Below are positions 3,640 to 37,200 of a DNA stretch of 64,000 bases, piece after piece. The notes under the pieces are model-generated. The model searched no databases, was not told the DNA's origin, and saw only the letters and a program-made list of their open reading frames with translations. The stretch spans positions 62,001-126,000 of the forward strand of contig CANRBF010000005.1 of assembly GCA_947628795.1 (NCBI GenBank), read 5' to 3'. A program made the position numbers and the translations under genes. Every line of letters starts with the position of its first letter. Position 1 is the stretch's first letter. The DNA comes from an uncultured Monoglobus sp. GTDB lineage: Bacteria; Bacillota; Clostridia; Monoglobales; Monoglobaceae.

Positions 3640-6600
3640 ATGAGACACTGCATAATTTTTAAAAGAGCGCTGTGCGCTTTTACGGCGATTATTTTCCTTG
3701 CGTTTTCCTTAATGTGCACGCCGGCGCTCGCGGACGAGAGCGGAGAGGCGTACTATACCAAAGATCCGATCATAACAGACGGAAAAACAGTCACCGCGGA
3801 GATCGCGAACGGAAGCGGCGAAAACGTGATGTTTATCGCGGCCGCGTACGAAAACGGAGTTGTGGCGGACGCCGAGACTCAAACGATCCCATCGGGTGCC
3901 GGAAACACCGAGGCTCGGGTCGAGTTTGACAAGGAGTATACCGATATCAGATGCTACCTCTGGTCAGAGAGCAGCATAGAGCCGTACGGCGACGTGACCG
4001 ACGCCCTGCCCGATCTGCTGCTCGCGTTCCCGGGAGCCGAGGGCGGCGGAAAATTTTCGCCCGGCGCCAGAGGCGCGCTGCCCGGAGGAAAGCTCGAGGT
4101 GTATCATGTGACGAAGCTCGAGGACTCGGGCAAAGGCACCCTGCGCGACGCGGTTTCAAAGTCGGGCAGGATCGTGGTGTTTGACATAAGCGGCACGATC
4201 GAGCTCAAAAGCGATATAAGTATGAACAGAAACAACGTCACGATACTGGGCCAGACCGCGCCCGGAGACGGCGTGACCGTCAGCGGCGGCTCTATCGTAA
4301 CAGGCGACGGAGTTAAGAATATAATAATAAGATACTTAAAGGTGCGTCCCACCGACAAAAACGGTCTTGAGCCCGACGGAATCGGCGGCAGATACGGTAC
4401 CGATATTATATTCGATCATGTAAGCACCTCGTGGTGCGTCGACGAGCTTTTGACCCTCTACGCGGGAGCGGCTCAGGACGCCAAGGCCGACAAGCCCGTC
4501 GGCAATCATCTTACGATACAGAACACGATCGGCAGCGAGAGCCTCCGTATGAGCAACCACACCAAGGGCGCCCACGGCTACGGCGCGATTTGGGGCGGCA
4601 CATACGCCAGTTATCTGAATAACCTGTTGGCGCATCACGACAGCCGCAGCCCCCGTCTCGACCGTCAGCTTGTCGCCACCGACGTGAGCAACAACGTGAT
4701 TTACAACTGGGGCCAGACCAACTCGGCTTACGGCGCCGAGCCGTATTCGAGCGCCAACGAGAAATCGACCGCCGACCAGAGGAACCCCTCAAACGTGAAC
4801 TGGGTCGGAAATTACTACAAGTCGGGCCCGTCCACCAGAGCGATGCTCAAAACAAGAATATTCGACGTGACCGAGCCTCTGACCGATACCGACAGAAAAT
4901 CGGTGTTCTATTTTGAAAATAATATCATCGACGGCATGGGCGAGGTAACAAATTATAAAGACAACAAGATAGTGAACAACTTTGCCGGAGCGGATTTCGC
5001 CGACAGCGAGATCGACATGGGCTATTACAAATACCGCCAGACCTCGGCCGAGGAAGCTCTTGATCGTGTTCTGAGCACCGCGGGAGCGACTTTGCCCAGA
5101 CGCGACGCCAACGACGCCAGGATAGTTAACGATGTTTTAAACGGCACCGGCAGAGTCATCAACAACGCCGGAGAGGTCGGCGGCCTGATACCCGTCGAGT
5201 CCGAGACGAGAGTGTTTGAGATACCCGCCGATTGGATGGCAAGCAACGGCTATACGGGCAAGGCCGAGACCGATATCACCGACAGCGGCTACACCGTTAT
5301 TGAGGAATACGTCAATTATCTGACCGAGGAGCAGAGCAAAACTCCGCCCACCAACGCGAATATTATTGTGCAGTCGCCCGCTATCGCGGCGCTCAGCGAC
5401 AATATCGAGGGCATGGAGGTCGACAACGGCGAGTGGACGGTCATCACCGAGGGCGAACCGCTGAGATACAAAGCGACGGCTATAGCGAGGGGCGGAAACG
5501 AAGTCACAAAAATGGAGCTCTACGACCGCAACTCCAAGATCGCGGATTATGACGGCTCGGCAATTGACAACGATATACAGCTCAATGCCGGAACTCATTA
5601 TCTCACCTGCCGCGCGATAAACACCCGCGGCGAAAAGACCCAGAGCACGACCTCGATCGTTTATGTCAAGTCGGCGGCGGCTCCGGGCAGCTACTCATTT
5701 GAGGAGATCAAGGAAAGCGGCTACACGGGATATGCCGGCAAGGGCGGCGCCTCGTTGGACGAGAAGGGCGTGTACACGATATACGGCTCGGGAAGGCTTA
5801 CCACCGATTCAAGCGACAGCTGCGGATTTATGTACAAAGAGGTCAGCGGCGACTTTGACGTGACCGTCAGAGTTGAGGAAATACCCAAATTTGAAAATCA
5901 GCAGGTGAGCGGTCTTATGGTGCGCTCGGGCATGAATCAGGGCGACATAATGGCTATGATAGGCGACGGTTGGGTGAAGAACGGCGAGAACGCCAGAATA
6001 CTGACCCGAAAGACCGAAAAAGGCTCGGCGCAGGAAATATATTTCAAAGACAAGAGCGGCGCGGCGGTTGACAATTCCGACGACAAGCACAGCAAGAGCA
6101 TGCCGAAATACATGAGGATAGAAAGAAAGGGCAACAGTCTGACGTTCAGCGTCTCGAACATGGGAATCGACTGGACAGACAACGACCGTCAGCCCGAGAC
6201 GATCGAATACGACGATTTGCCCGAGACTATGTATGTGGGTCTCGCCACCGATTCGGCGAGCGGAGTTTCGACAAAAGAGTATTTCTCGACCGCCAAGTTT
6301 AGCAATTTGATATTAAACGGCGAGAGAGACGTTGAGCCTCCCAAGAAAGGAACGGTTCCATTCTATGACGAGGAGTTTACCAATTCCGATTGGTTCTTCC
6401 CGTCGGGCAGCGGCCCCAAGAGTCTGGCCGAGACGCCTCTTGACGGAAACATCGGTGACGCTGCTCTGTTCTGGGGACCGTGCTCCAGAGATTTCGATCC
6501 TCAAAGCGCGGGCGTTGTCAAAGCGACGGCGGACTTTTTCACCAGAACCACGCCGAGGGTAGATCCGAATGCGGGCGCCAGATTTATGCTTCAGGGCATA

Positions 6601-6960
6601 AACGAAGCCGGCGAAACGGTCAAGATAAAGAGCGTATACGCTCAGCACTCTCTGGGATTCTTCGAAGATTATGACGATACTCCGTCAAATCCGACGATCA
6701 CTCCGACATCGGACGCCAAATATGATATCGAAAAGTGGTACAAGGTCGAGATGACCCTTGACTATAACACCGGTAAGGGAACGTACGCATTTAAGCCTTA
6801 TACCGAGTATAACTCGTCAACCGAAAAGTATGTGGCGGGAGACTCGATATTCGACCTCATGTTTGATTTTGACACGAGCGTGGCGGTCAGTCAGCTGCAT
6901 TTCGAGCGTCGAGGCGGTTTTGAGATGTACCTCGATAACGTCGGCGTGAGCGTCGAATAA
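3640..6960 (+). CDS. Secreted PL1-family pectate lyase, multidomain
   Basis: 1106 residues. A signal peptide (1 to about 31, ending PALADE) is followed by an approximately 80-residue module (about 40-125) with FIAAAYENG and RCYLWSES. The lyase domain starts with AFPGAEGGG at residue 129 and runs as a right-handed beta-helix to about 560; it contains TILGQTAPGDGV and FDHVSTSW, typical of the PL1 branch found in gut bacteria. An Ig-like linker follows, then a laminin-G/DUF1349-like domain (about 680-895; GFMYKEVSGDFDVTVRV) and a second sandwich domain to the end. It should cleave polygalacturonate by beta-elimination outside the cell. No anchor is visible. AAGGAGG precedes the ATG. Probably first gene of an operon reaching 11878. 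Confidence 0.88.
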   Translation: MRHCIIFKRALCAFTAIIFLAFSLMCTPALADESGEAYYTKDPIITDGKTVTAEIANGSGENVMFIAAAYENGVVADAETQTIPSGAGNTEARVEFDKEYTDIRCYLWSESSIEPYGDVTDALPDLLLAFPGAEGGGKFSPGARGALPGGKLEVYHVTKLEDSGKGTLRDAVSKSGRIVVFDISGTIELKSDISMNRNNVTILGQTAPGDGVTVSGGSIVTGDGVKNIIIRYLKVRPTDKNGLEPDGIGGRYGTDIIFDHVSTSWCVDELLTLYAGAAQDAKADKPVGNHLTIQNTIGSESLRMSNHTKGAHGYGAIWGGTYASYLNNLLAHHDSRSPRLDRQLVATDVSNNVIYNWGQTNSAYGAEPYSSANEKSTADQRNPSNVNWVGNYYKSGPSTRAMLKTRIFDVTEPLTDTDRKSVFYFENNIIDGMGEVTNYKDNKIVNNFAGADFADSEIDMGYYKYRQTSAEEALDRVLSTAGATLPRRDANDARIVNDVLNGTGRVINNAGEVGGLIPVESETRVFEIPADWMASNGYTGKAETDITDSGYTVIEEYVNYLTEEQSKTPPTNANIIVQSPAIAALSDNIEGMEVDNGEWTVITEGEPLRYKATAIARGGNEVTKMELYDRNSKIADYDGSAIDNDIQLNAGTHYLTCRAINTRGEKTQSTTSIVYVKSAAAPGSYSFEEIKESGYTGYAGKGGASLDEKGVYTIYGSGRLTTDSSDSCGFMYKEVSGDFDVTVRVEEIPKFENQQVSGLMVRSGMNQGDIMAMIGDGWVKNGENARILTRKTEKGSAQEIYFKDKSGAAVDNSDDKHSKSMPKYMRIERKGNSLTFSVSNMGIDWTDNDRQPETIEYDDLPETMYVGLATDSASGVSTKEYFSTAKFSNLILNGERDVEPPKKGTVPFYDEEFTNSDWFFPSGSGPKSLAETPLDGNIGDAALFWGPCSRDFDPQSAGVVKATADFFTRTTPRVDPNAGARFMLQGINEAGETVKIKSVYAQHSLGFFEDYDDTPSNPTITPTSDAKYDIEKWYKVEMTLDYNTGKGTYAFKPYTEYNSSTEKYVAGDSIFDLMFDFDTSVAVSQLHFERRGGFEMYLDNVGVSVE

Positions 6961-7008: not shown

Positions 7009-8697
7009 ATGTTTGATTTTGACAATTTTTGCTTTAGGTGCATGGGAGAGACCGAAAACGGCGTTTGCAAAATCTGCGGTTTCAACAACGGCGAATATGA
7101 AACGCCTCCCCATCATCTGAAGCCCAAAACGATCCTCAACGGAAAATATGTGATCGGCGCCGCGATGGGCGAGGGCGGATTCGGCATAACCTATGTGGGA
7201 TATGACCTCAACCTTGACATAAGGGTCGCCATAAAAGAGTATTTCCCGAGCGGCATGGTTACCCGCGGCACTGTCGGAGAGGGCAGCGTGACGCTGTATA
7301 CTTCCGGCGACCCGCATGAATACGAGGACGAAAAGAACAAGTTTTTGTTCGAGGCAAAAACTCTGGCGAAGTTCGACGATCTGCCGGGCATTGTGTCGGT
7401 TAGGGATTTCTTTAACGAAAACGGAACCGCGTATATCGTCATGGAGTTTATCGACGGTATCAGTCTAAAGGATTATCTCAAGAAAAACGGCGGAAAGATG
7501 AGCGTCGACAGAGCCTTGAGAATGACGGAGCCGCTTTTAAAGTCGCTGAGCCTGATACATAAGAGCGGAATAATACATCGTGACATAAGTCCCGACAATA
7601 TTATGATAACCAAAAAGGGCGAGATAAAGCTGCTTGATTTCGGCGCGGCGAGGGGCGTTTCTCTTGACGGCACCAAGAGCATGTCGGTGCAGCTGAAACA
7701 CGGCTACGCGCCCGAGGAACAGTACAGGAGCCACGGCAAGCAGGGTCCGTGGACCGATGTGTACGCCATATGCGCCACTATCTACCGCGCGATAACGGGG
7801 CAGGTCCCGGTCCAGTCGCTTGAGAGGATGTACGAGGATAACCTGGTCCCGCCCTCAAAAATGGGTGTGAATATCGACCCTCGGATCGAGGCGGCGCTGA
7901 TGAAGGGCATGGCGGTCTACGCGAGCGCCAGATATGAAAACGTTGACGATCTGTATAACGCGATATACCGCGGAGCGGCGGTTGATTATGACCCGAACCG
8001 CCGACCCGAGGGAGCCGACCCGAATCGGAATATAAGCGCGGGTCAGGGCTCGCCGAGAGGCGGATATCAACCCTCCGAGCAGCGGCCGCCCAAAAAGAAA
8101 ATTTCTCCCGTTTTGATCGCGGTCATGTCCGCGATGGGAGTGGTTGCCGCGGCGATAATAGTCGGTATTATTCTGATGTTCGGCTCGTCCGGCGGCGATG
8201 AACCGACGCAGACCGCCGCGGCGCCTCCGCCTACGGCGGCGCCGACGCCGACTTTGCCCCCGCCTCCGGTTTTCGGCGACTACAGCGCTTCAAGCACCAG
8301 AGGCGCCGATTACACCGCGGGCTATGCCAATTATTATTACGCCTCGTACGCCATAGACGGGGATATGACCACCGCCTGGTCGTGTGACAGAAATGTGGAG
8401 CTGACGCCCACGTACACGCTCAGAGCGGGCACAAAGCAGCATGTGAGCGGTATAAAGCTCACAAACGGCTATTGCAAGTCAAGCCAGACATACTATAAAA
8501 ACAGGAGAGTAACGCAGGTCGAGATATCGTATGAGGGCGGCAGCCAGATCGTTAATCTTCAGGAGGATGCTTACAGAGTTATGCAGGATATACCTCTCAC
8601 GGTCCCGGTCGACACCTCGTATATTTCAATCAGGGTCACTGACACGGTCTACGGCGACTGGAAGGATGTTGCGATCAGCGAGATCTCGGTATATTAG
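7009..8697 (+). CDS. Membrane Ser/Thr protein kinase with zinc ribbon and extracellular glycan-binding-like domain
   Basis: 562 residues. A zinc ribbon with two CxxC knuckles (CFRC and CKIC) opens the protein. The kinase domain (about 45-320) has the glycine loop GEGGFG, VAIK Lys76, HRD-type HRDISPDN (Asp192) and DFG Asp210, so it should be active. A Pro/Lys-rich linker, one membrane helix (about 363-390), a Pro/Thr linker and a C-terminal domain (about 423-562) follow. The last part, with YAIDGDMTTAW and GIKLTNGYCKS, resembles discoidin/NADase-type glycan-binding domains and would lie outside the cell. It follows the pectate lyase by 48 bp and precedes the M15 peptidase by 10 bp. A role in sensing wall or plant glycans is inferred. 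Confidence 0.87.
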   Translation: MFDFDNFCFRCMGETENGVCKICGFNNGEYETPPHHLKPKTILNGKYVIGAAMGEGGFGITYVGYDLNLDIRVAIKEYFPSGMVTRGTVGEGSVTLYTSGDPHEYEDEKNKFLFEAKTLAKFDDLPGIVSVRDFFNENGTAYIVMEFIDGISLKDYLKKNGGKMSVDRALRMTEPLLKSLSLIHKSGIIHRDISPDNIMITKKGEIKLLDFGAARGVSLDGTKSMSVQLKHGYAPEEQYRSHGKQGPWTDVYAICATIYRAITGQVPVQSLERMYEDNLVPPSKMGVNIDPRIEAALMKGMAVYASARYENVDDLYNAIYRGAAVDYDPNRRPEGADPNRNISAGQGSPRGGYQPSEQRPPKKKISPVLIAVMSAMGVVAAAIIVGIILMFGSSGGDEPTQTAAAPPPTAAPTPTLPPPPVFGDYSASSTRGADYTAGYANYYYASYAIDGDMTTAWSCDRNVELTPTYTLRAGTKQHVSGIKLTNGYCKSSQTYYKNRRVTQVEISYEGGSQIVNLQEDAYRVMQDIPLTVPVDTSYISIRVTDTVYGDWKDVAISEISVY

Positions 8698-8707
8698 GAG
8701 TTTTAGA

Positions 8708-9541
8708 ATGAGCAAAAAAAGAGATATTTCAACGGCCAAAGCCGTTATAACGGGGATCGTGTCGGGTGCGCTGCTGGTGCTTGCCGCCGCCTTGGTTATC
8801 ACGGCGCTCAAACATGGCGGCGCGAAAAAAGAAGCTTCGGCGGATAACGGAAACGCGGAGCCGAACATTCGGGCGGAAGAAGCGGCCGTGACTGAAGCGC
8901 CGACATCACCGCCGACCGAGACGCCCGGGCAGCCGGGCGGCAGAGGAAGTTGGCAGCCGATACCCGAGAGCGTGGTTTCGGAAATAACGGGAACATCGTA
9001 TCCGTCGGACGGCAGCGCGGTGATATCGCTTGACGAACTGGCGTATCTGACGATACCGTACCGCGATTTTGACGGCGGCTCTCAAACGGGCGAGATGATC
9101 GTGGCGAGAGATTTGGCCGACGAGGTGCTCGACATATTCGCCGAGCTTTATGAGATAGGTTATCCGATAGAGCGCATGCGGCTTGTTGACAAATACGGCG
9201 GCAGTGACTTCGCCTCGATCGAGGAGAACAACACGTCGGCCTTTAACTACAGAATGTCGACCGACGGCGGAACATCGCTTTCCAAGCACGCGCTGGGCCG
9301 CGCCATAGATATTAATCCTCAGATAAATCCCTATGTCAACGCAAACGGCACAGGCTCCCACGAGAACGCGGCCGAGTATTGGTCAAGAGACATCGGCACA
9401 TGGAGCGATGAGACAGCCAAAAGGGCGTATATCGGCCCGGGCACGGATATTTACAGGATATTCGTTGAGGAGCACGGCTGGGAATGGGGCGGAAGCTGGG
9501 AAAGCTACCGCGACTATCAGCATTTCCAGAAATTTAATTAA
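8708..9541 (+). CDS. M15-family metallopeptidase (D-Ala-D-Ala carboxypeptidase-like), membrane anchored
   Basis: 277 residues from the ATG at 8708, chosen because AGGAG lies 8 bases before it and MSKKRDISTAK leads straight into a membrane helix (about 12-34). A low-complexity Pro/Thr/Glu linker follows, then a catalytic domain (about 110-277). The zinc site of the M15C type is visible as SKHALGRAID (His and Asp) and the C-terminal DYQHFQKF (His). Such enzymes trim peptidoglycan stem peptides. It is 10 bp downstream of the membrane kinase, so regulation of wall turnover by that kinase is an attractive but unproved link. Confidence 0.85.
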   Translation: MSKKRDISTAKAVITGIVSGALLVLAAALVITALKHGGAKKEASADNGNAEPNIRAEEAAVTEAPTSPPTETPGQPGGRGSWQPIPESVVSEITGTSYPSDGSAVISLDELAYLTIPYRDFDGGSQTGEMIVARDLADEVLDIFAELYEIGYPIERMRLVDKYGGSDFASIEENNTSAFNYRMSTDGGTSLSKHALGRAIDINPQINPYVNANGTGSHENAAEYWSRDIGTWSDETAKRAYIGPGTDIYRIFVEEHGWEWGGSWESYRDYQHFQKFN

Positions 9542-9570: not shown

Positions 9571-10914
9571 ATGAATCAGGATTTCACGCGGGGCGCGATT
9601 TTAAGCAAGCTCATCGGGTTCGCTTTGCCAATGCTGCTGGTGCTGTTTTTGCAGGCTATGTACGGCGCGATAGATTTGTTTGTCGTGGGCAGGTTCGGAA
9701 TTTCCGCCGATGTTTCGGCGGTGTCCACCGGAAGCCAGATAATGCAGACGGTCACCTTCATGATCGAGGGTGTGTCGATGGGCATCACCGTTCTGGCGGG
9801 ACACAGGATAGGCGAGGGCAGCAACAAAGAAGCGGGACGCGTGATAGGCAGCGGCATAGCGCTGTTCGCCATGATCGCGATCGGCGCCACCGCCGTTATG
9901 CTCGCCTGCGCCCGTCCTTTGGCGGTGCTCATGCGGGCGCCCGAGGAGGCGTTCGGCAGGACCGTGACTTATATATTCATATGCTCCGCGGGAATGATAT
10001 TCATAGTGGCGTATAACCTGATCGGCAGCATATTCCGCGGCGTGGGAAACTCCCGCGTTCCGCTTATGACCGTGGCCATCGCCTGCGCGTTTAACATAAT
10101 CGGCGATCTGGTTTTCGTGGCGGGCTTCAAGCTGGGCGTCGCGGGCGCGGCTCTCGCGACCGTGATGGCGCAGGGCGTCAGCGTGCTGCTGTCGCTTATT
10201 ATAATAAAGCGCGTGAAAATGCCGTTCAGGCTCACCCGCCGCGACATACGCCTGCGCAAAAGAATAGTCAAGCGCATACTTTTTCTCGGTATTCCGATAG
10301 CGCTTCAGGACCTGCTCGTCAGCATATCTTTTCTGGTTATTCTGGCCATCGTCAATTCATTGGGCCTTGTGGCTTCGGCGGGAGTCGGCGTGGCCGAAAA
10401 GCTGTGCGCGTTCATCATGCTGGTGCCTTCGGCCTATATGCAGTCGATGTCCGCGTTTGTGGCGCAGAACATCGGCGCCGAGAGATACGACAGGGCAAAA
10501 AAAGCGCTGCTATGCGGCATATTATCGTCGCTGGCGGTGGGGGTTGTGATGTTCTACGTTTCGTTTTTTCAGGGTGATAAGCTTTCGACGATATTCACAA
10601 GCGACCCCGAGGTCATAGCGGCGGCCGCAAGTTATCTCAAGGCGTATGCTTTCGACTGCATACTGACGTCGTTCCTGTTCTGCTTCAGCGGATATTTCAA
10701 CGGCTGCGGAAAAACGATGTTCAACATGGCTCAGGGCGTGCTGGGCGCGTTCTGCGTGCGCATACCGGTTTCGTATTTCGTGAGCCGAATAGTGGGCGTG
10801 CCGCTTTTCTACATAGGTCTCGCCACGCCCTGCTCAACGATAGTGCAGATAATTCTGTGCCTGATATATTTCATGATAACCGAAAACAAAAGGCGCGTCG
10901 GGGCGCTTGAATAA
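9571..10914 (+). CDS. MATE-family efflux transporter
   Basis: 447 residues with twelve predicted membrane helices. The N-terminal segment GAILSKLIGFALPMLL and LFVVGRFG, plus the pseudo-repeat at about 230-250 (FLGIPIALQDLL), are typical of MATE (NorM/DinF-like) exporters that use a sodium or proton gradient. The substrate cannot be read. CGGAGG lies 5 bases before the ATG. It sits between the M15 peptidase (29-bp gap) and the esterase (10-bp gap), so it is probably in the same operon. Confidence 0.88.
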   Translation: MNQDFTRGAILSKLIGFALPMLLVLFLQAMYGAIDLFVVGRFGISADVSAVSTGSQIMQTVTFMIEGVSMGITVLAGHRIGEGSNKEAGRVIGSGIALFAMIAIGATAVMLACARPLAVLMRAPEEAFGRTVTYIFICSAGMIFIVAYNLIGSIFRGVGNSRVPLMTVAIACAFNIIGDLVFVAGFKLGVAGAALATVMAQGVSVLLSLIIIKRVKMPFRLTRRDIRLRKRIVKRILFLGIPIALQDLLVSISFLVILAIVNSLGLVASAGVGVAEKLCAFIMLVPSAYMQSMSAFVAQNIGAERYDRAKKALLCGILSSLAVGVVMFYVSFFQGDKLSTIFTSDPEVIAAAASYLKAYAFDCILTSFLFCFSGYFNGCGKTMFNMAQGVLGAFCVRIPVSYFVSRIVGVPLFYIGLATPCSTIVQIILCLIYFMITENKRRVGALE

Positions 10915-10924
10915 GGGTGATACA

Positions 10925-11878
10925 ATGACAAAAATTTTTCTTTTGGGTGACTCGATCGTGACCGCCTACGGAAAGGATTCGGAAAACATAATCGGCGGCT
11001 GGGGCGACCACCTCGGCTGCTTTTTCGGGAATGAGGCTGTGGTGATCCCCTGTGCCAACGGCGGCAGGAGCACCAGAAGTTATTTAAACGAGGGCAGATT
11101 TATCGACAACGGAAAATTCACAAAAGATATGTTTCCATACGGCGTCGGCCCGTGCTATGATCTGATGAGCCGAGGCGATTGGGTGCTGATCGAGTTTTGC
11201 CACAACGACGACGATTCGGCTCGCTGCGAAAAGCGCGAGGCGCGCCACACGCCTTTGGGAGAGCCCGACGAGCGCGGGATATATCCGAGCGTTATGCCCG
11301 AGGGAGCCGCGCCGTATTCTTTTGGCTGCGGCGCGACATATAAAGGTTACTTAAAATTTTACATAAAAAAGATACGCGAAAAGGGCGCGAATCCCGTATT
11401 GGTAACGCCTCCGCCCAGAGGCTGCTTTGTCGGCGGCGTTATCGCGTCTGTGCCCGGCAACCACGGCGGCGCGGACGAATTCGGCGAATACGCCTATATA
11501 CGCGCCATAAGGCAGACGGCGGAAGAAGAGGGTGTTCCGCTGATCGAGCTGTTCGAAAAGGCAAAGGATTTTATTGACGGTCTGGGAGAGGATAAGTTTA
11601 GATATCTGCAGTCGATAAAGGACGCGGAGGGCAAGACCATTGGCGAGGCTCGGCTCGGCAGGCCCAAGCGCTGGCCCGAGGACTACGACAGGATCATGGA
11701 AAGCGGAGAATACGCCGATATCGACAACACCCATCAGAACCGATATGGTTCATATGTTTACGCGGGATTTATCGCGGAGGAAATAAAACAAAAAATCCCC
11801 GACCTTGCGGAATTTATTTTGGACGTTCCCTCAAAAACAGTTGCGAAACCTAAAGCTCTCACGCGGAAAAATTCGTAA
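10925..11878 (+). CDS. SGNH hydrolase, rhamnogalacturonan acetylesterase-like (CE12)
   Basis: 317 residues from ATG 10925, preferred over a TTG at 10907 that overlaps the upstream gene. GDSIV near residue 8 holds the nucleophile Ser, VLIEFCHNDD is block III of SGNH hydrolases, and DNTHQNRYG near the end holds the catalytic Asp/His. The order and spacing match CE12 rhamnogalacturonan acetylesterases, which deacetylate pectin backbones. There is no signal peptide, so it would act inside the cell on imported oligosaccharides. This fits the pectin genes around it. A generic GDSL esterase is the alternative. Confidence 0.83.
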   Translation: MTKIFLLGDSIVTAYGKDSENIIGGWGDHLGCFFGNEAVVIPCANGGRSTRSYLNEGRFIDNGKFTKDMFPYGVGPCYDLMSRGDWVLIEFCHNDDDSARCEKREARHTPLGEPDERGIYPSVMPEGAAPYSFGCGATYKGYLKFYIKKIREKGANPVLVTPPPRGCFVGGVIASVPGNHGGADEFGEYAYIRAIRQTAEEEGVPLIELFEKAKDFIDGLGEDKFRYLQSIKDAEGKTIGEARLGRPKRWPEDYDRIMESGEYADIDNTHQNRYGSYVYAGFIAEEIKQKIPDLAEFILDVPSKTVAKPKALTRKNS

Positions 11879-29602: not shown

Positions 29603-32600
29603 ATGAAAACAATTCTGAAAAGAACGGGCATGCTGTTTGTGGCTCTGGCGGTAATGCTGAGCTGCGTATCGCTTCCCGCGCTGGCGGCTCAGGCGGAGCC
29701 CGCCGCGGAGAACAGCCGCGTTGAGGCCTTCCCCGGAGCCGAGGGCGGCGGCATGTGGACGACCGGCGCAAGAGGCGCCGAAAAGCCCGAGGTCTACCAC
29801 GTTACCAGCCTTGCCGACAGCGGCGAAGGCTCGTTCCGCGACGCGGTCTCAAAGGGCGGCCGCATAGTTGTGTTTGACGTTTCGGGTTATATCGACCTTG
29901 ATTCAAACGTCAACATCAGCAATGACAACATGACGATCCTGGGCCAGACGGCGCCGGGCGACGGAATCTGCTTCCGCGGCAATAACATCAAGGTCGGCGG
30001 AGACAACATTATCCTGCGGTATCTGCGCTTCCGTGTGGGCTCAAAGCTCAAGGACGGCTCGGACACCAAGGCACAGGACGGCCTTGAGGTTCCCGACAAC
30101 GGCAATAATATCATAATCGACCATTGCTCGGTTTCATGGGGAACCGATGAGAACCTTGCAGCCTACGCGGTTAAGGACCTGACCGTGCAGTACAGCATAA
30201 TTTCCGAGGCGCTGAACCGTAGTGTGCACGACAAGGGCGAGCACGGTTACGCGGCGATTTGGGGAGGCGTCAATATGACCGTTCACCATAATCTGATCGC
30301 CACGCATAAGAGCCGCAATCCCAAGATCGGCACATCCGAAACCACCGCTATGACGGATGGTTATATAGACGACCAAACTCTGGTTGACATCAGAAATAAT
30401 GTGTTCTACAACTGGAGCGACAAGGCCGGCTACGGCGCGGAGAACGGCGCGGATGTTAATATCATAAACAATTATTACAAGGCGGGTCCGGCTACCGGAT
30501 ATGATGTCAAAGAGGACGCTTCCGGAAATTTGACGCAGACATTCCGCCCCGACAAACGTTCCAGGATATTTGAACTGAGTCCCGGCAACAAGTATCAGTC
30601 AAACTGGTCGGGAGATATATATGCGAGCGGCAACGTGATAGATGACGATAGCACAGATCCCACAGCCGTAAGCTTGGCGGCTGCGGTCAATGCTGATAAC
30701 TGGCAGATCGAAAAAGGCACCGGAATATATCTCGATGCTTCAAAGCCGAGTTATAAAAAGCTTGACACCCCCAACAACACATATATCGATCAAGGTTACG
30801 CGATCACAACGACAACTGCCGAAGAAGCGTATAACGACGTTATCGAGAATGCGGGTGCGACGCTGCCCAAACGCGACAAGGTCGACGAGAGAATAATAAG
30901 CAATGTAATAAACCGCACCGCGCCGAGCGGCAGCAAGGGCAGCATAGGACTTGTGGATGATCCAATTGACGGCGTTCCCGAGGGCAGCGAGGCCGAGTAT
31001 GACGACCGCGGCTATCCGATATTCTCAAACGAGACGCGCCCCGCCGATTATGACGCGGACGGCGACGGCATCGCCGACTCGTGGGAGGACGCGATGGGTC
31101 TTAACAAAGCCGACAGGAACGACAGCCTTAAGATCGGCCCCGACGGCTACACATGGCTCGAAATATTCGTTGAGGAAAGCATAGCCGGCGGAAAGGAGCC
31201 CGCGGGCCTTGCGCTCAGCGCCGAAGATAAGTATTACAAAACGACCGACACGATCAAGGTGACGGCGGCCGAGGGCGGCGCCGCTCCCTCGAACTCGTGG
31301 GTAACTTCCTACGAAAACGGAATTGTGACGGTAGATCCGTCGGCCGAATATGACAAAGCGACAGCTGTAGCAGCTTCGTATGACGCAGACAATAATCTGA
31401 TAGACAGCAAAAACGCCGAGGTCGACAAAGCTTCCGGAACCGCCAATGTGGGCGAGGTCAAACAAGGCGCGGTCACCAAGGTATACCTTTGGAGTGATCT
31501 TAACGCCATAAAACCCTTGTGCGAGCCGTATACGGTTGGAGCAGCCTCCGCAAGCTCGGAAGATATCACCGACGTTGAAATCTATTGCAACGACGCTCCC
31601 GCGGCGCAGGCCGAGAATATCGGCGGCGTCTGGACGGCGAATCTGACCGGACTTCCCACAGGCAATAATATACTGACAGCCAAGGCGGAAATGAGCGACG
31701 GCAGCTGCAGCTTCAGTCCGATAAAGACCGTTCATGTGATCGGCGCGCAGGAAGCCGAGGGTTGGACAGCCGACGGAGAGGCGTCATTTGACGGCGAGTG
31801 CTACACTATGACTTCCGGCTCGGAGCTCAGCCGCGAAAAGAGCGGAGATTTCAAACTGGTCGGCAGACTTGAGGACTTTGACGAGGTTGGCGCCGGACTT
31901 ACCGCTTATCGCGAAGGCACGAACGAGGGCGTGGCGATCATCAAGACGCGCGACGAAAACTACGAGCCCGCGATATTTTACATAGACAGCTTGGATGCCG
32001 AAATAAAGCTGTGGGCGCCGGAAAGCGGCAGCGTCGACGATTACTCTCTGTTTGAAATAGAGAGATCGAGCGGAAAGATGAGAATGTACGCGGGCACAAG
32101 CCTTGCGGACCTTGAGAGAAACCTTGTGTGCGAGAGAGATGTAACGAGCGACGCGTTCACGGTCGGCTCGATCATGATGCTGACAAACGGCACAAGTCTC
32201 ATCGCGGGCGGAGGAAACAAAATGTCGGTTTCAAAGTTCAGCATGCTGAAGCTGATCGAGACGGCGACAAGTCCCAAGGTTGAGCTTACGAATATAAAAG
32301 ACAACGACAGAATAGATGTGGCAAATTCAACGGTTGAAGCCAAGATAACAGCGGACGGCGCGCCCGTTACCGAGGTATGGGTATACTTTAACGATGTGCC
32401 TATCGCTTCACTTGATACAAATATTACCGCTGAAGAAACTGTCAGCATACCAATTACATTCAGCGAGCCTACCGCCGGAACATTGACGGTTTACGCCTTT
32501 GACGATAACCTGTGCCGCGGCTCGGCGAGCGCGGAAGTTTCGGTGTCTATGGACAGCGCGCCGTGGATCCTCGGAGATATAGGCTATGTTGAGGGACAGC

Positions 32601-34213: not shown

Positions 34214-37200
34214 ATGAGAAAGAATTTTAAACGCGTTTCTTCAATAATAATAGCGCTCGCTATGGTATTGACCCTCGTCCCCGCCGCTTTCGCGGCGGAG
34301 GCGGGTCTGCCCGAGAACGACACGGCTCCTATAGTATCGCCCGAGCAGGCGAAGGCCGATAACGTCACCGCGTTCCCGGGCGCCGAGGGCGGCGGAAAAT
34401 ACACCACAGGCGGCAGAGGCGGCGAGGTGTACCACGTTACCAACTTAAACGACGACGGCCCCGGCTCGCTGCGCGAGGGCGTCAGCAAGCCCAACCGCAC
34501 GATCGTGTTCGACGTGGGCGGAACCATACACTTAAAGTCCGACCTGAGGCTTGAGAACCCCAACATCACGATCGCGGGCCAGACCGCGCCCGGCGACGGT
34601 ATCTGTCTCGGAGACTACAACCTGATGATCTACACCGACAACGTTATCGTGCGCTATATCCGCGTTCGCCCCGGCGACATTTCCCAGACCGAGAACGACG
34701 CGATATTCGCCAGATATTATAAGGACATAATCATCGATCACTGCTCAACAAGCTGGTCGACCGATGAGACCATGTCGCTCTACGGCGTCGCCAACACAAC
34801 GGTGCAGTGGTGTTACATCACCGAAAGCCTCACGCTGGCGCGCCACGCCAAGGGCCGCCACGGCTACGGCGGAATTTGGGGCGGATACAACACGACCTAT
34901 CATCACAACCTGGTCGCCACCCACACCAGCCGTCTGCCCAGATACCACGGCGTAAAGGACTCGCACCCCGATTATAAGATCAGCGACACCGACGCGCTCA
35001 GCAGTAATGACGAGGTCAACAACGTCATCTACAACTGGGGCTTCAACAACGGTTACGGCGGCGGCGGAGTTACCCTTAACTTCATGAACAACTACTACAA
35101 GAGCGGCCCGATAACCAACAAGGACGTGCTTGACAGGATCTGGAACCCCGGCGGCACCACCATGTACTGCGCGGGCAACGTGCTTGAGGGCAACGAGGAA
35201 GTTACCAACGACAATATGAAGGGCATAGACGTTGACGATAGCGGCGATGAGACGGTATTTCTCGACGCGCCCACTTACGAAAACGGCCTGATACCCCTTG
35301 ACAATATCGACACGGCCGAGGAAGCCTACGAGAAAGTTCTTGCCTCGGCGGGAGCGACCATACCGAGGCGCGACGGCTATGACGCCAGAATAACCAACGA
35401 CGTCAAGAACGGCACCGGCCGCTCGATAAACAACGAGGCCGAGGTCGGAGGCTGGCCCGAGCTCAATTCGGGCGAGGCGAAGCCCGATACTGACGGCGAC
35501 GGAATGCCCGACGAGTATGAGGATTCCCACAACCTTGACAAGAACGACCCCAAGGACGGCAACACAATGGGCGAAAACGGCAGAACGTTCCTTGAGAATT
35601 ATCTGAACTCGATCGTTGAGAACGCCGCGGCTCCCGCGAATCCCGATGTTGACCTTAATATCGAGAACAACGCGATCTATAATTACGGCGAGACCATAAA
35701 TATGAAAGCCGAGGCAAGCGGCAAAGAGGGCAGAACAATATCCGAGGTTCGCTTCTACAGAAACGACGAGCTGCTCTATACCGACGATTCGGCGCCCTAT
35801 GAGTACAGCTACAGCGGCGCGCCCGAGGGCATCTCGTTTATGTCCGCCAAGGCCGTGGACAGCGCAGGCGAGTCGACCACATCGGATATCAAAGTAATAA
35901 ACGTTAACTACACCGAGGCGCCCGGCGACTGGAATACCATGGACATCGGCCAGGCGACCATGCCCGGCAGCTACTCGCTGCATGACGGGGTTTACACCGT
36001 CAAGAGCAGCGGTCTTATAGGCGCGGGCAACGAGTTCAACGTTATGGACGGCGACGAGGGCACCGACGCGTTCAGCTATATGTACAAAGAGGCGGACGCA
36101 AACGCGGTGCTGTCGACCAAGATAGACTCGGTTTCAAAGTTCAACAACAACTGCGTCAGCGGCATTATGTTCCGCGACGAGCTGACCCCGACATCCGACT
36201 TCGTGATGGTCAACTACGAGCATGAGAAGGGCGGAGCGGGACTGTCGTTCAAATACAGGATCGGCGGCAAGATGACAAAGAACTTTATCGTCCTCTCCGA
36301 ACTGCCCAGATATATCAAGCTGGTAAAGATCGGCAATACCTTCACGGGCTATCACAGCATCAACGGCATCGACTGGGAGTATTTCGACAGCGCGGAGCTG
36401 CCCATGAGCGGAACCAACTACGGCGGAATCGCTCAGGACGGCAACAAAGAGACAAATCAGATCTCAACATACGCTTGGGGCAAATTCACCGATTTGGATC
36501 TTGAAAACTACGGCGAGAACAAGCTCCCCGATATCGAGATGCGCACAGGCACGGCCGGCGAGCAGAACGGGGTCAATCCCAGCACATTATTATGGCAGGA
36601 TAAATCCCAATTCAGCGCGGGCGACAGGATCGACCTCAAGATCGCTTCAAGCGAGCTTGAGACGGCAAGTAAGCTTGAGATATACTTAGACGGCGAGCTG
36701 TATAACAGCTCCGACGCGGTTTATGAGCATGAGTCGGTAACGATCGACACTCCCGGCAACCACTATATCACGGCGGTCATCTACGACGCGGACGGCGCCA
36801 AGAACAGCGCCACCCAGAACGTGGGCGTTTCAAACGTGAGCGGCGGATGGCAGACTTCCGAGATACACTATCCCAAGGACATTCAGGCAAGCGGCACCAC
36901 GATCAGACACGGCGCGTTTGATTTAGAGGGCAGCACTCTCAGGATAACCGGCACGGGCTTCGGCATTGAGGGCGTCGAGAACGAGGAGTATCCGATGATG
37001 TATAAGCAGCTCACGGGCGACTTTGAGGCTTCGTTCAAAGTTGACGAGCAGACCTTGGCCGACTACGACCACATGGGCTTTGTTGTCAAAAATTCCCTCG
37101 ATCCGCAGGAGGACGGCACGTCATACGCGGCATACCACGAGATATACTACGGCGAGATGTTCAGAAAAACGAGCGAGTACGGCAAGAAATATGATCTTAT

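Follow-up and report, generated by a model that had tools for sequence, protein, structure and literature searches.

A PpkA-like membrane kinase with a predicted CBM32-type outer domain recurs beside an M15 peptidase gene in Monoglobus and other Clostridia

Introduction

The PASTA kinases (PrkC/PknB/StkP) are the known route of wall-fragment sensing in Gram-positive-type bacteria. A different kinase, PpkA, belongs to the threonine-phosphorylation pathway of type VI secretion. In Bacillota, variants c and e of the type VII secretion system (T7SSc/e) contain a membrane kinase (TscD/TseD) together with a PPM phosphatase and FHA/vWA proteins, and the outer parts of TscD/TsdD have been reported to be helical (PMC11217815).

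The locus described here lies in the window, a stretch of 64,000 nucleotides from an uncultured Monoglobus sp., and encodes a membrane kinase followed by an M15 peptidase. It resembles PpkA systems in its kinase domain and in the PP2C and FHA partners of its relatives, but differs from them by a discoidin/CBM32-type outer domain, a VWA protein that is encoded separately, the M15 partner, and its occurrence in Clostridia. With T7SSc/e it shares the set of membrane kinase, PPM phosphatase and FHA/vWA proteins in Bacillota, whereas its outer part is predicted to be of the discoidin/CBM32 type rather than helical. Overall, its kinase is nearest to PpkA and its outer domain to PF25302, whereas its supposed role is nearest to that of the PASTA kinases, to which it does not belong.

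Architecture of the kinase

The kinase gene, its parts and its M15 neighbour are as follows:

7009..8697, + strand: membrane kinase ORF, 562 aa (Cys4 knuckle, PpkA-like kinase, membrane helix, Pro/Thr-rich linker, predicted discoidin/CBM32-fold domain)
7030..7077, + strand: Cys4 zinc-ribbon-like knuckle (C8, C11, C20 and C23; Cys8-x2-Cys11...Cys20-x2-Cys23), read from the sequence
7135..7959 (residues 43-317), + strand: PpkA-like kinase domain (PF00069, PpkA similarity, conserved catalytic residues)
8104..8175 (about residues 366-389), + strand: single membrane helix, from hydropathy
8275..8694 (residues 423-562), + strand: outer domain, predicted discoidin/CBM32 fold (PF25302 at 441-561)
8708..9541, + strand: M15_4 peptidase, membrane-anchored, 277 aa (PF13539; zinc ligands H194, D201 and H272)

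Three other Monoglobus species have this ORF at 90-94% identity, and it is therefore considered a real gene. The Cys4 knuckle is common to most relatives of the protein, and a full-length model, which is of low confidence (pLDDT 49, pTM 0.40), places the helix at 368-389. A Pfam profile search of the ORF matched PF00069 at residues 53-270 (E=1.6e-31), and the catalytic residues are present, namely the glycine loop 54-59, K76, E115, H190-R191-D192, N197 and D210-F211-G212. The Hanks-type active-kinase motifs (glycine loop, VAIK Lys, HRD Asp and DFG Asp) are complete, and kinase activity is predicted. The preliminary description of this DNA, in which a zinc ribbon, an apparently active Ser/Thr kinase, one membrane helix and a discoidin/NADase-type domain were assigned to a single protein, agrees with the ORF, the PF00069 match, the hydropathy profile and the PF25302 match.

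The closest solved relative of the kinase domain is PpkA of Serratia (1.3e-45), and both proteins contain the HRDIS and QGPWTD motifs. HRDxS in place of HRDxK was considered as a mark of a dead kinase and was rejected because PpkA also has HRDIS. PASTA kinases had been offered as the comparison for this protein. Like them, it is a Ser/Thr kinase of the membrane that bears an outer domain and whose link to the wall is presumed; the repeats and the kinase type differ: no PASTA repeat was matched in the protein in the Pfam and NCBIfam profile searches, and the score against the PASTA-kinase model NF033483 was 168 bits versus a cut-off of 450. By sequence similarity, the kinase is PpkA-like and not PASTA-like; other, more distant kinases in the source genome may fill the PASTA-kinase role.

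Fold of the outer domain

The outer domain belongs to PF25302 (NADase_transloc; residues 441-561) with 56.8 bits versus a cut-off of 27, and to the NCBIfam family NF047619 (NADase_discoid) with 65 bits versus a cut-off of 38. Among PDB entries, only 7ji1 matched it by sequence (6.6e-09); this entry is named ADP-ribosyl cyclase, and we take it to be the streptococcal NADase domain. Family membership is shared with the translocation domain of streptococcal NADase, but here there is no NADase and PF25302 is fixed to a kinase.

A structural model of residues 417-562, built from five sequences, reached moderate confidence (pLDDT 65, pTM 0.66). The top Foldseek match was 2v72 (8.7e-05), with CBM32 and related discoidin-type modules leading the matches, and a VIA fold comparison gave Z 8.9-10.4 over the best 50 matches. 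Solved CBM32 structures scored Z of about 9.0-9.8 against the model, so the fold is alike, whereas identity is about 11-23%. No match below 1e-3 was obtained in a viral fold search with the model. On the strength of the model, the fold of the outer domain is of the carbohydrate-binding type, a beta-sandwich as in solved CBM32, which agrees with the glycan-binding-like domain of the preliminary description; glycan binding is putative.

The M15 partner and its pairing with the outer domain

The likely start of the M15_4 gene (8708) lies 10 bp past the kinase stop. PF13539 was matched with 6.6e-20 (71.9 bits versus a cut-off of 25), the H/D/H zinc-ligand columns are conserved in 42-43 of 43 sequences, and in homologous loci the anchor is either a TM helix or a lipobox. 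The nearest solved relatives are L-Ala-D-Glu endopeptidases, a weak match (E=0.014 over 21 residues).

By surveying 391 Clostridia genomes at a subfamily threshold of E<=1e-60, 61 kinases were collected, nine of which carry PF25302. An M15 gene was present within 6 kb of eight of these nine kinases versus one of the 52 without PF25302 (Fisher 2.7e-8). The four Monoglobus copies represent one locus; when it is counted once, the figures are 5/6 versus 1/52. An order-level survey of 51 genomes detected PF25302 in nine, and strong M15-subfamily matches in ten, which take in all nine (Fisher 3.3e-9 by genome and 2.1e-4 by genus, a statistic that ignores kinship). The pairing is found in three bacterial families, and the arrangement of the genes varies:

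Kinase then M15: the 7009-8697 locus, L096 and L097
M15 at the far end of a cassette: L048-L050, and probably also L051 (contig break)
Divergent kinase and M15: L092
Pseudokinase, M15, then NagZ-like GH3: L091
Kinase-less outer-domain proteins divergent from M15: L094 and L095

The kinase domain at L091:2241-4175 (genome G059) has neither the VAIK lysine nor DFG and is likely a pseudokinase, while the outer domain and the M15 partner are kept. Because pairing with M15 persists with a pseudokinase (L091) or with the kinase absent (L094 and L095), the outer domain and M15 together form the constant unit, and what lies inside the cell varies. One domain-bearing kinase (G308) is an exception in that no M15 gene lies close to it, and there are many relatives of M15 without the kinase. 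Among representatives, the distances of the outer domain and of M15 correlated with r=0.31 (permutation p=0.051). In a separate arrangement, L055:8001-15564 encodes three sister kinases with differing outer domains; in one of them this domain is a C-type lectin, and a NagZ-like GH3 gene comes directly after that kinase, as one does after M15 in L091. No description of the pairing with M15 was found in the literature searched, most subscription journals lying outside that search.

The constancy of the outer domain and M15, whether an active kinase, a pseudokinase or none lies inside, also speaks for the main rival explanation, a docking platform in which the outer domain would hold or regulate M15 by protein-protein contact and would be no glycan sensor. 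Discoidin folds that bind proteins, such as APC10 and IFT25, are also among the fold matches of the model. On the other hand, relatives of M15 are found without any such outer domain, for example at L093 (66% identity), and most of the nearest solved folds belong to modules that bind sugars; docking is regarded as rather unlikely.

Losses within Monoglobus

The M15 gene has left a trace in three Monoglobus genomes (G004, G007 and G009), in which the stretch from the lyase gene upstream of the kinase to the MATE gene downstream of M15 is about 110 bp and both kinase and M15 are gone:

9506..9541, + strand: 3' end of M15, the last 36 bases to the stop codon, which persists as a deletion scar in G004, G007 and G009

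The scar in G004 matches the M15 end at 29 of 36 bases with one gap and stops at the stop codon, just before MATE. G007 and G009 carry the same remnant, and only 0, 0 and 1 of 1000 shuffles reached the scores of the three genomes. Insertion of the kinase-M15 pair between lyase and MATE was rejected, because the scar indicates deletion in this clade; the state is best read, from the sequence remnants, as one deletion that removed the kinase together with almost the whole of M15. No M15 scar was seen in G005, in which the lyase lies beside MATE with neither kinase nor M15. In G003, only the first 54 codons of the kinase gene and some degraded pieces are left, and M15 is intact (96%). The locus tree was built without the lyase, since that of G008 is divergent (68%) and misplaced G008 when included.

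A link to the wall peptidase, which the preliminary description had suspected, is well borne out by the counts within 6 kb, the spread over three families and several gene orders, and the joint deletion.

The pectin question

Two further genes flank the pair:

3640..6960, + strand: pectate-lyase-family gene (NF041900), context only and outside the conserved unit
9571..10914, + strand: MATE transporter, directly 3' of the lyase in species without the kinase-M15 pair

The reported flanks, a pectate-lyase-like gene on one side and an M15 peptidase gene on the other, are recovered by the NF041900 and PF13539 matches, respectively; the former (E=9e-32) is far under the cut-off of that equivalog. 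Downstream, 10925-11878 of the window encodes a GDSL esterase weakly similar to the pectin acetylesterase PaeY (8e-10), and two more lyases of the 3640-6960 family lie at about 29723-30517 and 34355-35473 (G000:C5:91723-92517 and 96355-97473).

Pectin had been suggested as the sensed glycan, in which case the outer domain would bind pectin and the kinase would tune secretion or wall turnover. The pair does lie inside a pectin locus (lyase and PaeY-like GDSL esterase), only 48 bp from the lyase with no terminator-like site called in between, and may be co-transcribed with it. Moreover, Monoglobus pectinilyticus is a primary pectin degrader, and the genus is one of pectin specialists (PMC12163728). 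However, four sister species have the same lyase without the kinase: the orthologue occurs in the order araC-luxR-lyase-MATE-GDSL in G004, G007 and G009, and G005 has it next to MATE. Each Monoglobus genome contains 9-17 lyases of this family, which makes a lyase neighbour cheap. Outside Monoglobus, no lyase of the family was found near homologous genes, and no recurring pectin gene was present among their scanned near neighbours, for which the Pfam scan gave PP2C, FHA, VWA, trypsin-FHA, M15, ABC, NagZ-like GH3 and housekeeping genes, as well as sporadic GH127, GH36 and GH26 genes. Since sister species keep the lyase without the kinase and no pectin gene recurs in the contexts scanned elsewhere, the pectin reading rests on one locus; a conserved association was rejected, and a pectin sensor appears quite improbable. 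The survey of domain order in Clostridia that had been proposed for this question gave a divided answer: M15 recurs, and no pectin gene does among the neighbours scanned.

The PP2C/FHA/VWA cassette

Relatives have a cassette of PP2C, trypsin-FHA, PP2C, FHA and VWA-FHA genes in which the kinase stands first or is a further member, and the kinase-M15 pair lies in or near it. In the source genome (G000), the cassette is on another contig, C24, with its own kinase that has a different outer domain (L142). Only G000, G006, G008 and G010 were found to have the VWA-FHA and trypsin-FHA genes of the cassette at high identity, and these are the four genomes in which the kinase of the 7009-8697 type is intact; G003, with its gutted kinase and intact M15, has neither gene (a draft, 90% complete). 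This co-presence fits a supply in trans, but four closely related genomes are a small sample, and a gene missing from a draft genome is weak evidence.

Several related arrangements were also observed. A further FHA/PP2C/VWA cassette at L139:5236-13376 (G007:C29) contains two kinases that lack DFG and whose outer parts are leucine-rich-like or Ser-rich. At L096:14320-16635 and L097:4699-7005, the cassette is closed by a two-FHA ABC transporter (Pfam for L096), the layout of which is similar to that of mycobacterial Rv1747. A kinase-less zinc-ribbon/TM/discoidin protein (L046:3760-4731; G003:C22) lies in an operon with VWA, DO-GTPase2 and an 869-aa protein without a Pfam match.

Such partners have suggested an antagonism or defence system, in which kinase, FHA, VWA and GTPase-type proteins would sense envelope attack, as PpkA/Fha do for type VI. 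The PpkA-like kinase, the PP2C/FHA/VWA neighbours, the kinase-less version beside the DO-GTPase and VWA gene (L046), and the kinase/PPM/FHA sets of T7SS variants (PMC11217815) are consistent with it. Nevertheless, no T6SS secretion gene was found among the genes scanned at the 7009-8697 locus and selected neighbours in relatives, and no secretion ATPase (including TsxC), WXG100 protein or toxin gene was recognised among the neighbours scanned at the locus and in relatives; this explanation is regarded as unlikely.

Proposed mechanism and implications

The reading we prefer is a two-gene cell-surface signalling unit, in which the outer domain and M15 would keep watch over the wall of the cell itself, with the kinase signalling via FHA proteins encoded elsewhere; its probability is put at roughly 0.5. 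The architecture, the fold class, the anchored M15, the recurrent pairing, the joint deletion and the cassette co-presence are its observed basis. As the kinase of relatives travels with a surface wall peptidase and not with pectin enzymes, what it senses is more probably the wall of the bacterium itself than food.

Outside the cell, the CBM32-fold domain and the anchored M15 would share one target, which they act on or read and which is most likely peptidoglycan or a wall glycan attached to it. The state of the kinase may then be altered by binding or by what M15 does to the target, in whichever order these events occur. Inside, the PpkA-like kinase would phosphorylate threonines read by FHA proteins. 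The candidate phosphothreonine readers are a trypsin-like protease of the surface and a VWA protein, each by way of its FHA tail, with PP2C phosphatases presumably resetting the signal. The FHA partners, which comprise FHA, trypsin-FHA and VWA-FHA membrane proteins, are encoded next door in relatives and in the source genome would be supplied in trans by the C24 cassette.

A broader and more tentative possibility is a modular trans-envelope system of Clostridia, separate from the PASTA kinases, in which a PpkA-like kinase would be combined with exchangeable lectin-like outer domains and a dedicated anchored peptidoglycan peptidase, and phosphorylation would recruit FHA-tailed surface proteases and VWA proteins to the site.

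If the signalling reading is true, gut Clostridia would have an independent route of wall sensing in a second family of kinases, whose lectin-like outer domains are associated with a wall peptidase. It would also explain a role for PF25302, which is labelled as glycan-binding in databases, beyond streptococcal NADase.
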